Positions 18,955 to 44,880 of a DNA stretch of 64,000 nucleotides are shown in pieces. This DNA comes from Gluconacetobacter tumulicola (GTDB lineage Bacteria; Pseudomonadota; Alphaproteobacteria; Acetobacterales; Acetobacteraceae). The position numbers and the translations under genes were made by a program. The notes below the pieces were generated by a model. The model was given only the letters and a program-made list of their open reading frames with translations, was not told where the DNA came from and did not search any database. Position 1 is the first letter of the stretch, and each line of letters opens with the position of its first letter. Location of the stretch: positions 1 through 64,000 of the forward strand of contig NZ_JABEQL010000004.1 in the NCBI RefSeq assembly GCF_014174215.1, written 5' to 3'.

Positions 18955-20469
18955 ATGAACGGGTTTCTTTCTCCGCGCCGCGCCGGGCTGATGGTCCTGG
19001 CGGCGCTGTCGGGATGCACGATGATCCCCGACTACAAGCGGCCGGCACTGCCGGTCGCATCGACCTGGCCGCAGGGGCCGGCCTATCACGCCGGCGCCCC
19101 TGGGCAGATCGGCACGGCGGCTTCGGACCTGGGCTGGCGCGAATTCTTCGTCGACAAGCGGTTGCAGGCGCTGATCGCGCTGGCGGTGCGGGACAATCGC
19201 GACCTGCGTTCGGCGGCCTATGCCGTGGTGCAGGCTCAGGGCCAGTACCAGGTGCAGCATGCCTCGCTGTTTCCGCAGATCGGATCGACCGGGCAGGCGG
19301 TCTATCAGGCGCCGTCGAGTCATGCGGGCTTCAGCTTCGCGCCGGGCCTCGGTGCCGGCAGGAGCGGCGCGGCCTATGGCGATGGCCGCGTCTTCAAATT
19401 CTACCAGGCGGGCATCGGCTTCTCGTCATACGAGATCGACCTGTTCGGCCGCATTCGCAGCCTGTCGCGCGAGGCGGCGGACCAGGTTCTCAGCCAGGCC
19501 GCCAGCGAGCGCAGCCTGCTGATCAGCGTCATCTCGCAGGTGGCGACCACCTATGTGGCGTGGCTGGCCGATACCGAGCAGCTGAAGGTGACCGACCAGA
19601 CGCTGGCGTCGCAGAAGGAGACGCTGCGCCTGACCCAGGCCGGCCTCGATCACGGTGAGGCCAACCAGCTCACCCTGCGTCAGGTCGAGACCCAGGTGGA
19701 GCAGGCGGCGGCCAACCACGCCCAGTACCAGCGCCAGGTGGCGCAGGACGAGAACCAGCTGGCGCTGCTGGTGGGGGCGCCGCTGCCTGCCAACCTGCCG
19801 GCCCCCGCGCCGTTCGGGAAGCAGACGGTCCTGGCCGACCTGCCGGCCGGACTGCCCTCCGACCTGCTGGACCGGCGGCCGGACATCCAGTCTGCCGAAT
19901 TCACGTTGCTGTCGGCCAATGACGATATCGGCGCGGCGCGGGCCGCCTTCTTCCCACGCCTGACCCTGACGGCGTCGGACGGCGTGTCCAGCCTGCAGTT
20001 CCGCAACCTGTTCACCCAGGGCGCCACCACGTTCGGGGTCAATCCCCAGATCCAGATCCCGTTGCTGACCTGGGGCCAGAACGAGGGCACGCTCCAGGCT
20101 TCCAAGGCCCTGCGCAACCAGCGCATGGCGGCGTATGAAAAGGCGATCCAGACGGCTTTCCACGAGGTTTCGGATGCGCTGGCCGCGCGGGCGACCTATC
20201 TGGACCAGGCGCGCCAGCTCGATGCGCTGGTGGACTCCTCGACCGATGCCTACCGGCTGGCGCGGATGCGCTTCGATGCTGGCGTGGATTCGTACCTGAA
20301 TACGCTGGACGCGCAGCGTACGCTCTATGGCGCGCAGCAGAGCCGGATTTCGGTGCATGAGGCGCGCTACCAGAATCTGATCACCGTCTATCGCGCCTTG
20401 GGGGGCGGATGGACGGAACGGAGCGTGCCGCCGGGGCAGGCCGCCGCGGCGGCGACGCAGAAAGGCTGA
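18955..20469 (+). CDS. RND efflux outer-membrane factor (NodT/OprM-type lipoprotein)
   Basis: A 504-residue outer-membrane channel. The signal ends in the lipobox LSGC (AALSGC, about residue 21), followed by the family start 'TMIPDYKRPALPV'. Two OEP (TolC-like) repeats follow, with SYEIDLFGRIRSLSREA in the first and PDIQSAEFTLLSANDDIGAARAAFFPRLTL in the second. GGAGAG is well placed before the ATG at 18955, and the gene starts 4 bases after the pump stop. It completes the tripartite exporter. A strong terminator follows at 20496-20523. Confidence 0.93.
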   Translation: MNGFLSPRRAGLMVLAALSGCTMIPDYKRPALPVASTWPQGPAYHAGAPGQIGTAASDLGWREFFVDKRLQALIALAVRDNRDLRSAAYAVVQAQGQYQVQHASLFPQIGSTGQAVYQAPSSHAGFSFAPGLGAGRSGAAYGDGRVFKFYQAGIGFSSYEIDLFGRIRSLSREAADQVLSQAASERSLLISVISQVATTYVAWLADTEQLKVTDQTLASQKETLRLTQAGLDHGEANQLTLRQVETQVEQAAANHAQYQRQVAQDENQLALLVGAPLPANLPAPAPFGKQTVLADLPAGLPSDLLDRRPDIQSAEFTLLSANDDIGAARAAFFPRLTLTASDGVSSLQFRNLFTQGATTFGVNPQIQIPLLTWGQNEGTLQASKALRNQRMAAYEKAIQTAFHEVSDALAARATYLDQARQLDALVDSSTDAYRLARMRFDAGVDSYLNTLDAQRTLYGAQQSRISVHEARYQNLITVYRALGGGWTERSVPPGQAAAAATQKG

Positions 20470-20495
20470 AGGGCCCGGTATGGGTCAGTCTGCAG

Positions 20496-20523
20496 GGCGG
20501 GTCCTTCGGGGCCCGCCTTTTTT
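20496..20523 (+). terminator. Intrinsic terminator of the RND operon
   Basis: GGCGGGTCC (20496-20504), a TTCG tetraloop, GGGCCCGCC (20509-20517) and six T residues make a 9-bp stem (one G-U) with a stable UUCG loop and U-tract. It starts 27 bases after the outer-membrane-factor stop codon. Confidence 0.93.
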
Positions 20524-20580
20524 GTTCTGCACGCAAATTCAGCACTGTCATGAAATAACAGTGAATGGAACGCGATCGTT

Positions 20581-20614
20581 TATTGTGCGTTGCAATGTAT
20601 TGTGCGCTGCAACA
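20581..20614. repeat. Tandem 17-bp direct repeat upstream of the hairpin series
   Basis: The unit TATTGTGCGTTGCAATG at 20581-20597 is followed at once by TATTGTGCGCTGCAACA (20598-20614), matching at 14 of 17 positions. Across the two units, GTTGCA...TGCAAC also forms an inverted repeat. A second inverted repeat, CACTGT (20543-20548) / ACAGTG (20558-20563), lies just before. Such spaced repeats near a promoter usually bind a regulator. Which one is unknown. Confidence 0.5.
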
Positions 20615-20648
20615 AAATCATCAAACGGCGTTTATTTGCATATTTCGT

Positions 20649-20677
20649 TTGACCGATAGAAAAAAACGCGTCATTAA
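20649..20677 (+). promoter_or_regulatory. Possible promoter of the structured RNA segment
   Basis: TTGACC at 20649-20654 is a good -35 match. With a 17-base spacer, CATTAA at 20672-20677 is a poor -10 match. Transcription would start near 20684, just before the first hairpin. Confidence 0.35.
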
Positions 20678-20683
20678 AGCTTC

Positions 20684-20822
20684 ATCAGAGTGAGAAGACC
20701 GGAACGGCCCACTCTTGAGAACAAGAAACCCGCGGCGATACGATCGCGGGACTTAAAAATGAGGGATCGAACCCTCGGACTGACCTTAAAAAAGGTGCAT
20801 CTTTCACGATGCACCTTTTTTT
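20684..20822 (+). ncRNA. Candidate structured RNA: four hairpins ending in a strong terminator, upstream of a DUF1275 gene
   Basis: Four consecutive helices are visible. (1) AGAGTG 20687-20692 with CACTCT 20710-20715, enclosing a small CCG-gaa-CGG hairpin. (2) CCCGCG 20729-20734 with CGCGGG 20745-20750. (3) GAGGG 20761-20765 with CCCTC 20772-20776. (4) GGTGCATC with GATGCACC as the terminator stem. No protein-coding frame fits. The next gene starts only 52 bases after the T-tract, so this may be either an independent sRNA or a 5' leader that controls DUF1275 gene expression by termination. I do not recognise a known RNA family. On the minus strand, helix 3 reads like a tRNA T-arm (loop TTCGATC), so a decayed tRNA fragment is an alternative for that part only. 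Confidence 0.5.
20788..20822. terminator. Strong, bidirectional-looking intrinsic terminator
   Basis: Six A residues, GGTGCATC (20794-20801), loop TTTCAC, GATGCACC (20808-20815) and seven T residues. The perfect 8-bp stem is extended by A-T pairing and can terminate transcription in either direction. It lies 52 bases before the proposed TTG start of the DUF1275 gene. Confidence 0.9.
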
Positions 20823-20874
20823 ATTGGCCTGCCTGCGATATGCGCGGTGCCTCGTTTCTGAGGACAGGCCCGGA

Positions 20875-21555
20875 TTGAAACCGATTTCCCCCGACCCACG
20901 GCTGGTTATTGTCGTCATCATGGTCACCGTCGCCATGGGGGCGCTGGATGCCATTTCGTTGACCCATCTGAAGGTCTTCACCGGCTACATGACCGCGACC
21001 GTCATCCTGATCGCGGTGCATCTGACCTCGGGGGAATCGATCGCCGGGCCGGGCGTGGTGGCGATTACCGCCTATCTGGCCGGGGCGGCGATGGGCGGCC
21101 GCCTGGTCCGGCGCTCTCATTCGCGCCGGCGCACGGTGGCGGACCTGCTGATGGCGGTGGGCGCGCTGGTGCTGGTGGCGGCCCTGGTCTGGTGGCAGGA
21201 CGCGGCCTGGCGGTACTATGCCACGCTGGTCGTGCTTGCCGTTGCCATGGGGTTGCAGACCTCGGCCACCCGTCACGCCCAGGTCACGGACCTGACATTG
21301 CCGGCCGCCACCATGCTGCTGCATGGGCTGATGCATGACAGCCGGCTGGCCGGCGGCCCGGCGAAAGGGGCCTGGCGGCGGGTGGTGGCGATTTTCGCCC
21401 TGTTCGGCGGTGCGGTGCTGGGCGCGCTGATGTCCAGCGTGTCGGTGCCGGTCTCGATCGGTCTGGTGGGGCTGCTGATCGGCAGCGCCGGGTGCCTGCT
21501 GTATGTGGGCGACCATCCGCTGCTGGAACGGCTGGAAACACTCGGCCCGTCCTGA
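20875..21555 (+). CDS. DUF1275 (YoaK-type) integral membrane protein
   Basis: A 226-residue membrane protein with about six hydrophobic segments. GALDAISLTHLKVFTGYMTA near residues 20-40 is the DUF1275 signature (usually 'GxVDAxSF...FTANMTGN'), and GLQTSATRHAQVTDLTLP is the family's second conserved block. Function is unknown; transport is assumed. The in-frame ATG at 20809 lies inside the terminator and cannot be the start. The TTG at 20875, with AGGACAGG 7-14 bases upstream, gives the normal family length. Its short, terminator-preceded leader suggests attenuation control. Confidence 0.8.
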   Translation: MKPISPDPRLVIVVIMVTVAMGALDAISLTHLKVFTGYMTATVILIAVHLTSGESIAGPGVVAITAYLAGAAMGGRLVRRSHSRRRTVADLLMAVGALVLVAALVWWQDAAWRYYATLVVLAVAMGLQTSATRHAQVTDLTLPAATMLLHGLMHDSRLAGGPAKGAWRRVVAIFALFGGAVLGALMSSVSVPVSIGLVGLLIGSAGCLLYVGDHPLLERLETLGPS

Positions 21556-44803: not shown

Positions 44804-44880
44804 CGGAGTGTAGCTCAGCCTGGTAGAGCACTGTGTTCGGGACGCAGGGGCCGGAGGTTCGAATCCTCTCACTCCGACCA
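44804..44880 (+). tRNA. tRNA-Pro (anticodon CGG), CCA encoded
   Basis: The cloverleaf folds fully: acceptor CGGAGTG/CACTCCG with ACCA at the end, D-arm GCTC...GAGC, anticodon stem CTGTG/CGCAG with loop TTCGGGA (anticodon CGG at the centre), and T-arm GGAGG-TTCGAAT-CCTCT. It decodes CCG proline codons, which are frequent in this GC-rich DNA. No integrase gene or duplicate of the 3' end was noticed, so there is no sign of use as an attachment site here. Confidence 0.96.

Follow-up and report, generated by a model that had tools for sequence, protein, structure and literature searches.

The interval between positions 20524 and 20874 of the window, i.e. the 64,000-nt stretch of Gluconacetobacter tumulicola DNA analysed here, begins directly past the point where an outer-membrane efflux gene (OEP) terminates and ends at the start of a gene for a DUF1275 membrane protein. 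The preliminary description of this interval had proposed an undescribed structured RNA with a promoter, four helices and a terminator, or else an attenuator or riboswitch of the DUF1275 gene. The question is therefore whether the RNA serves its downstream neighbour or is a gene in its own right, and, if the latter, what sets its expression. The best reading of the sequence is that of a free-standing gene, which would be transcribed from a promoter of its own and would end at a strong terminator (Table 1).

Table 1. Features of the RNA locus and its downstream neighbour, in window coordinates
Feature	Position	Strand	Description
Distal PhaR-type box	20583-20597	+	TTGTGCGTTGCAATG; matches the published consensus TGCRNYGCASMA save the last three positions
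Proximal PhaR-type box	20600-20614	+	TTGTGCGCTGCAACA; matches the consensus TGCRNYGCASMA save one position
-35 element	20649-20654	+	TTGACC; 31 nt past the proximal-box block in 14/14
Weak -10 element (predicted role)	20672-20677	+	CATTAA; CAT invariant in 14/14
Structured small RNA	20684-20822	+	about 139 nt, from a predicted start; defined by alignment, covariance model and fold
Hairpin P1	20688-20714	+	GAGUG/CACUC, arms 20688-20692/20710-20714; inner CCG-GAA-CGG hairpin
Invariant single strand	20720-20728	+	AACAAGAAA; no variation in any of its 9 columns across 14 orthologues; mean unpaired probability 0.65-0.98
Hairpin P2	20729-20750	+	arms 20729-20735/20744-20750; 7 pairs, one with double changes; 100% of cells paired
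Hairpin P3, sequence-variable	20761-20776	+	arms 20761-20765/20772-20776
Intrinsic terminator	20790-20822	+	12-bp hairpin and U tract; three of the 12 pairs are doubly changed; 98.7% of cells paired
DUF1275 membrane protein gene	20875-21555	+	TTG start at 20875; PF06912, 82 bits; neighbour, outside the RNA system

By blastn against 60 genomes, the RNA was found in all 14 genomes of a genus set consisting of Gluconacetobacter and Nguyenibacter vanlangensis, the window's own genome included, and in none of the 46 others. The promoter-like pair, with a gap of 17 nt between its two elements, is conserved among these orthologues. A generic scan for sigma-70 promoters and terminators listed neither this promoter nor the terminator, and the promoter-like site that it did list within the RNA (20715-20744) is taken as chance. 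Invariant alignment columns are concentrated in the 5' half of the RNA (45 of 68 in 20684-20751), fall to 3 of 36 between that half and the terminator and rise to 18 of 35 in the terminator itself. The segment 20675-20825 folds at -52.2 kcal/mol vs -32.2 kcal/mol in dinucleotide shuffles, none of 200 of which was as good (z -5.4), and the terminator alone gives -18.8 to -23.7 kcal/mol across the 14 orthologues.

The covariation analysis that the preliminary description had proposed was run on 14 rows, 13 of them distinct, fitted to a covariance model. In this alignment, which leans toward structure because it was fitted to structure, 99.5% of 403 cells were paired, compared with at most 58.6% when the pairing partners were slid, and the covariation score of 0.243 (0.163 in shuffles) was reached by none of 500 shuffles. 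Doubly changed cells numbered 20 vs 6.8 in shuffles, again a count that none of 500 matched; six pairs were changed on both sides against a shuffle mean of 3.7, with 19 of 500 shuffles reaching six, and the number of further pair types (17 vs 17.4 in shuffles) was not above expectation. P1 shows one exchange of U-A for C-G in 6 of the 13 distinct rows, its remaining pairs being invariant. P3 was misregistered by MAFFT and was anchored at its loop by a script choosing the best hairpin in each sequence; so anchored, it pairs as G-C, A-U, G-U, C-G, U-A and U-G, i.e. by compensatory change. The claim that a previously undescribed structured RNA exists here, equipped with a promoter, helices and a terminator, is thus upheld by conservation, fold and covariation. 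Of the helices, P1, P2, P3 and the terminator are conserved and show compensatory changes, whereas a short CTTG/CAAG helix (20714-20717/20722-20725), which the window sequence could form, is not kept across the alignment.

The same layout could be read as a cis-acting attenuator or riboswitch governing DUF1275 through conditional termination, since the terminator lies only 52 nt (20823-20874) ahead of the TTG start and DUF1275 is the next gene in 13 of the 14 loci. The orthologues speak otherwise. The longest run complementary to the terminator arm was no better than in shuffles in any of the 14 sequences (48 to 200 of 200 shuffles as good), and no antiterminator pairing is conserved, in agreement with the preliminary description, which had found no partner by eye. 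Conservation ends at the terminator, with just 1 of 16 columns invariant past it, and G. sacchari (L007) keeps the RNA in a locus from which DUF1275 is absent and where pyruvate kinase comes next. The efflux gene, in turn, was not found in four of the 14 fetched loci (L011-L014). With DUF1275 absent in the one case and the efflux gene not found in the others, the RNA is kept independently of both neighbours. The attenuator part of the preliminary description was accordingly not borne out, and we regard control of DUF1275 by conditional termination as highly improbable.

Can the free-standing RNA be assigned to anything known? The preliminary description had recognised no RNA family and suggested an Rfam search, and none was found over threshold at 20684-20822, which makes the RNA novel relative to Rfam 15; at E values up to 10, the region 20400-21000 gave 19 sub-threshold matches, none above its gathering score, and the three of the 14 orthologues that were scanned (L008, L011 and L014) had no match at gathering either. 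A tRNA fragment was considered and rejected: the minus-strand match reached 14.3 bits, below the cut-off of 29, and the single tRNA that ARAGORN reports in the window is at 44804. We take the tRNA-like look of the minus strand as chance because few parts of the RNA are less conserved than P3. A leader peptide or small protein was likewise rejected, there being no reading frame common to the 14 orthologues, which carry 1- and 4-nt insertions; only the window genome (G000) and three near relatives have a GTG frame near 20690 that stays open for 62 codons. No plasmid relative was found in PLSDB. Among the titles and abstract openings listed for sRNAs of Gluconacetobacter and the Acetobacteraceae, for PhaR of Gluconacetobacter, for PhaR and sRNAs and for MmgR, mostly from sources outside subscription, none describes this RNA.

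Nor did searches of wider genome sets reveal a convincing relative outside the genus set, whether by covariance model, core and gapped patterns or pyruvate-kinase neighbourhoods. The covariance model, run on 299 family genomes at E<=0.01, matched in 11, seven of the genus set and four others with weak scores of 20-25 bits; with scoring limited to 10 candidates per genome, the search is shallow, of low sensitivity, and leaves room for a very divergent member. When the four weak matches were searched for exact core motifs, a single GAGAAGACC in L029 was all that turned up. In another genus (G269), a minus-strand stretch (L030 1501-1602; 23.5 bits with the model) has a CCGGAACGG hairpin followed by AGAACAAGAA, which is probably chance. 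The core pattern matched in 19 of 397 family genomes, 12 of them in the genus set, where it missed G004 and G012 owing to an inserted base; the seven others were judged to be coding or start-codon contexts. One genome, G001, has a second place with the core pattern, ahead of another gene (L052).

A gapped pattern, searched in the genome contig collection, gave 20 stretches, 11 of which came from ten Gluconacetobacter species (G. dulcium, liquefaciens, johannae, sacchari, diazotrophicus PA1 5, asukensis, aggeris, takamatsuzukensis, azotocaptans and tumulisoli) and Nguyenibacter vanlangensis; the other nine were unrelated, scoring at most 22.6 bits with the covariance model vs 138-162 for members. 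Pyruvate-kinase neighbourhoods were read at 30 loci, 28 of them of other genera, from 59 genomes with a match. There was no box in 28; L179 had the core, allowing as many as 3 mismatches, and L182 had AACAAGAAACC with a single mismatch, but the two never occurred together. The best explanation is that the RNA founds a new family, which would have no known members beyond Gluconacetobacter and Nguyenibacter vanlangensis.

The most informative element of the interval, absent from the preliminary description, is the pair of tandem boxes at 20583-20614. The PhaR boxes known so far, with which they were compared, are those of other genera (Bradyrhizobium and Sinorhizobium). The proximal box is intact in 14 of 14 orthologues, with 18 of the 20 columns of 20598-20617 invariant, and the most conserved upstream element, GTATTGTGCNNTGCAACAAAA, is followed in all 14 by exactly 31 nt and then TTGAC. 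A palindromic box of the form TGCRNYGCA, as expected where PhaR controls transcription, is present near the promoter. The site reported for PhaR of Bradyrhizobium is TGCRNYGCASMA (PMC6201568), and that of S. meliloti is given as WNWD2NYGCRNYGCRNH2WNW (PMC12542648). At such palindromes, according to the latter report, S. meliloti PhaR shifts promoter fragments of phaP1, phaP2, phaZ, SMa1961 and mmgR, the SMa1961 site ATATTGTGCAGTGCAGCAACA being bound efficiently (PMC12542648). As in the PhaR regulons of S. meliloti and B. diazoefficiens, a matching palindromic box in the window genome is accompanied by an equivalog of the regulator (phaR at L077 1453-2082; TIGR01848, 146 bits vs a cut-off of 109).

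A pattern drawn from the window boxes and their orthologues, TTGTGCRNTGCAAHA, with MmgR not known to the search, had two exact matches in the window's own 4.29-Mb genome, one being the proximal box and the other the promoter of an MmgR RNA (RF00519, 44.9 bits; gathering score 41). With one mismatch allowed, five places were found, i.e. the two exact ones, the distal box and two other contexts (C7 and C14), compared with two for the reversed control. The stricter pattern ATTGTGCRNYGCA, which was shaped knowing both sites and so does not alone define a regulon, occurred at 45 places in the 14 genomes, of which 21 were at the window RNA, 13 at mmgR-B and 11 elsewhere, with none for the reversed control. 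By this strict pattern, the window genome has three boxes, all at sRNA genes. Among the 11 further boxes are G004:C1:3545228, G012:C3:3225892, G003:C16:47672, G002:C33:9400 and seven others; those of G004 and G012 have identical matched letters.

RF00519 (named suhB in Rfam; MmgR/alpha-r8) is found in all 14 genomes, 13 of which have two copies; in G004 and G012 the second copy falls slightly short of the gathering score (39.6 and 39.5 vs 41). The copies of the window genome are at G000:C11:31415-31489 (L123) and G000:C1:87690-87759 (L117). In 13 of 13 copies of mmgR-B the box stands at one fixed distance from the -35, while upstream of mmgR-A there are scattered core matches in 3 of 14. Copy A (upstream regions L105-L118) has a conserved promoter block of its own, CTTGACACTTAAAWGTGAT, in 12 of 14 genomes and a variant of it in G013 and G011, which suggests that this copy may be under a different regulator. 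The window RNA thus resembles the MmgR family in that its gene, like that of one of the two MmgR copies here, encodes a small RNA and has a promoter marked by a PhaR-type box. It was nevertheless rejected as a member of MmgR/alpha-r8 on both model score and core: RF00519, which needs more than 41 bits, is not listed for it even at E values up to 10, and it is without the MmgR single-stranded core UUUCCUCCCU, with no CCUCC in any of the 14 orthologues. It also differs from MmgR in length (about 139 nt vs 77 nt for MmgR of S. meliloti), in the three hairpins ahead of its terminator and in boxes that end 31 nt before the -35.

Taken together, it is rather likely that the RNA is an independent trans-acting sRNA whose transcription is set by PhaR along with that of mmgR-B, and which is held by Hfq and regulates mRNAs. 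In this pathway PhaR would bind both tandem boxes upstream of the sRNA promoter and so set the transcription of the sRNA and of one of the two MmgR copies alike; Hfq would then hold the sRNA through the invariant strand and the terminal U tract, leaving the conserved 5' domain (20684-20751) to act on mRNAs in trans. PhaR is described as a repressor of S. meliloti mmgR (PMC12542648) and is called an activator of phaP3 in R. eutropha (PMC12849132); for the sRNA we lean toward activation, a better fit to boxes whose centres lie near -77 and -94 relative to the predicted start. Besides the origin of the known boxes in other genera, two observations sit less easily with PhaR control. The core of the distal box is intact in 7 of the 14 orthologues, altered by one base in 2 and degenerate in 5, and both boxes lie upstream, unlike the S. 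meliloti phaP1 and phaP2 sites, which are reported to flank the -35 (PMC12542648). A different regulator with the same box as its recognition site could account for this position, unusual for a PhaR repressor site, and the link to PhaR is itself made through predicted sites. However, the core matches PhaR sites reported as footprinted or shifted in Bradyrhizobium and Sinorhizobium, the box is found at mmgR as well and the genome encodes a PhaR equivalog, and we hold another regulator to be improbable.

The second half of the proposed pathway, the role of Hfq, draws on the invariant single strand. It reads as three ARN triplets, presumably an (ARN)3 motif of the type bound by the distal face of Hfq, and an Hfq gene is present in 13 of the 14 genomes, the exception (G013) being 87% complete. 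Together with the promoter-like element, the intrinsic terminator, the lack of a conserved reading frame and the independence of neighbours, all expected of an Hfq-dependent trans-acting sRNA, this suggests that the RNA is probably one. The conserved, folded 5' domain would also suit a protein-binding or structural RNA that does not base-pair, and no target was found: in full-length duplex scans against four neighbouring gene starts, 60, 5, 126 and 123 of 200 shuffles were as good. The start of the efflux gene (5 of 200) was considered as a target and not credited, the pairing being one long gapped duplex. We nonetheless think a protein-binding or structural role unlikely, given that the RNA is genus-restricted, has regulator-type boxes at its promoter and keeps an unpaired strand invariant, none of these three points being decisive.

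That the window RNA and mmgR-B have the PhaR-type box in common raises another possibility, namely that the former is a sponge that sequesters MmgR sRNAs, much as CrfA of Caulobacter crescentus is reported to be a sponge of the alpha-r8 sRNAs SisA-D (PMC12559287). CrfA, too, is an sRNA whose genome encodes several alpha-r8 RNAs (PMC12559287), and the 5' arm of P3 is rich in purines, which speaks for a sponge; the word PhaR is absent from the main text of the CrfA paper (PMC12559287). Unlike what is reported for CrfA, complementarity of the window RNA to the MmgR core is not beyond chance: with the terminator excluded, it did not beat dinucleotide shuffles in any of the 14 orthologues (73 to 178 of 200 shuffles were as good), and a full-length duplex with MmgR-B was equalled by 163 of 300 shuffles. 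Moreover, the best sites fall mostly in P3, which is itself paired and poorly conserved. A sponge for MmgR is thus a very unlikely role for this RNA.

If PhaR does control the sRNA, what PhaR would respond to in these bacteria becomes of interest. In other bacteria, PhaR is a sensor of PHB, a stored carbon polyester, and its regulon there consists of phasins, depolymerases, mmgR and others. PhaR was found in 13 of the 14 genomes, the miss being G013, whereas, by these searches of mostly draft assemblies, a PhaC-like gene was undetected in 8 of 14, including the window genome (7 of the 8 are at least 99% complete), and Phasin_2 (PF09361, the sole phasin family searched) in 14 of 14. The PF07167 search had missed the PhaC-like genes of G004, G012 and G011, and was repeated with a protein of the genus. 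Since neither a PHA synthase relative nor Phasin_2 was detected in the window genome, its PhaR looks orphaned, yet its predicted sites are kept. It can tentatively be hypothesized, though we find it doubtful, that PhaR has outlived PHB here and been re-purposed chiefly to sRNA control, responding to another signal and acting mainly post-transcriptionally via two unrelated sRNAs. Were PhaR control of the sRNA true, the acetic-acid bacteria would gain a new sRNA family for which a candidate regulator can be named, and the wiring of PhaR to an sRNA, known for S. meliloti mmgR, would seem to reach past PHB storage. Species with a PhaC-like gene beside phaR, compared with those without, offer a natural test of PhaR sensing in the absence of PHB. 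Such a gene lies beside phaR in six genomes, including that of G. diazotrophicus, in which a putative synthase clustered with PhaR has been described (PMC4210832); these PhaC relatives are class-III-like and score below the cut-off (138 vs 365 bits).
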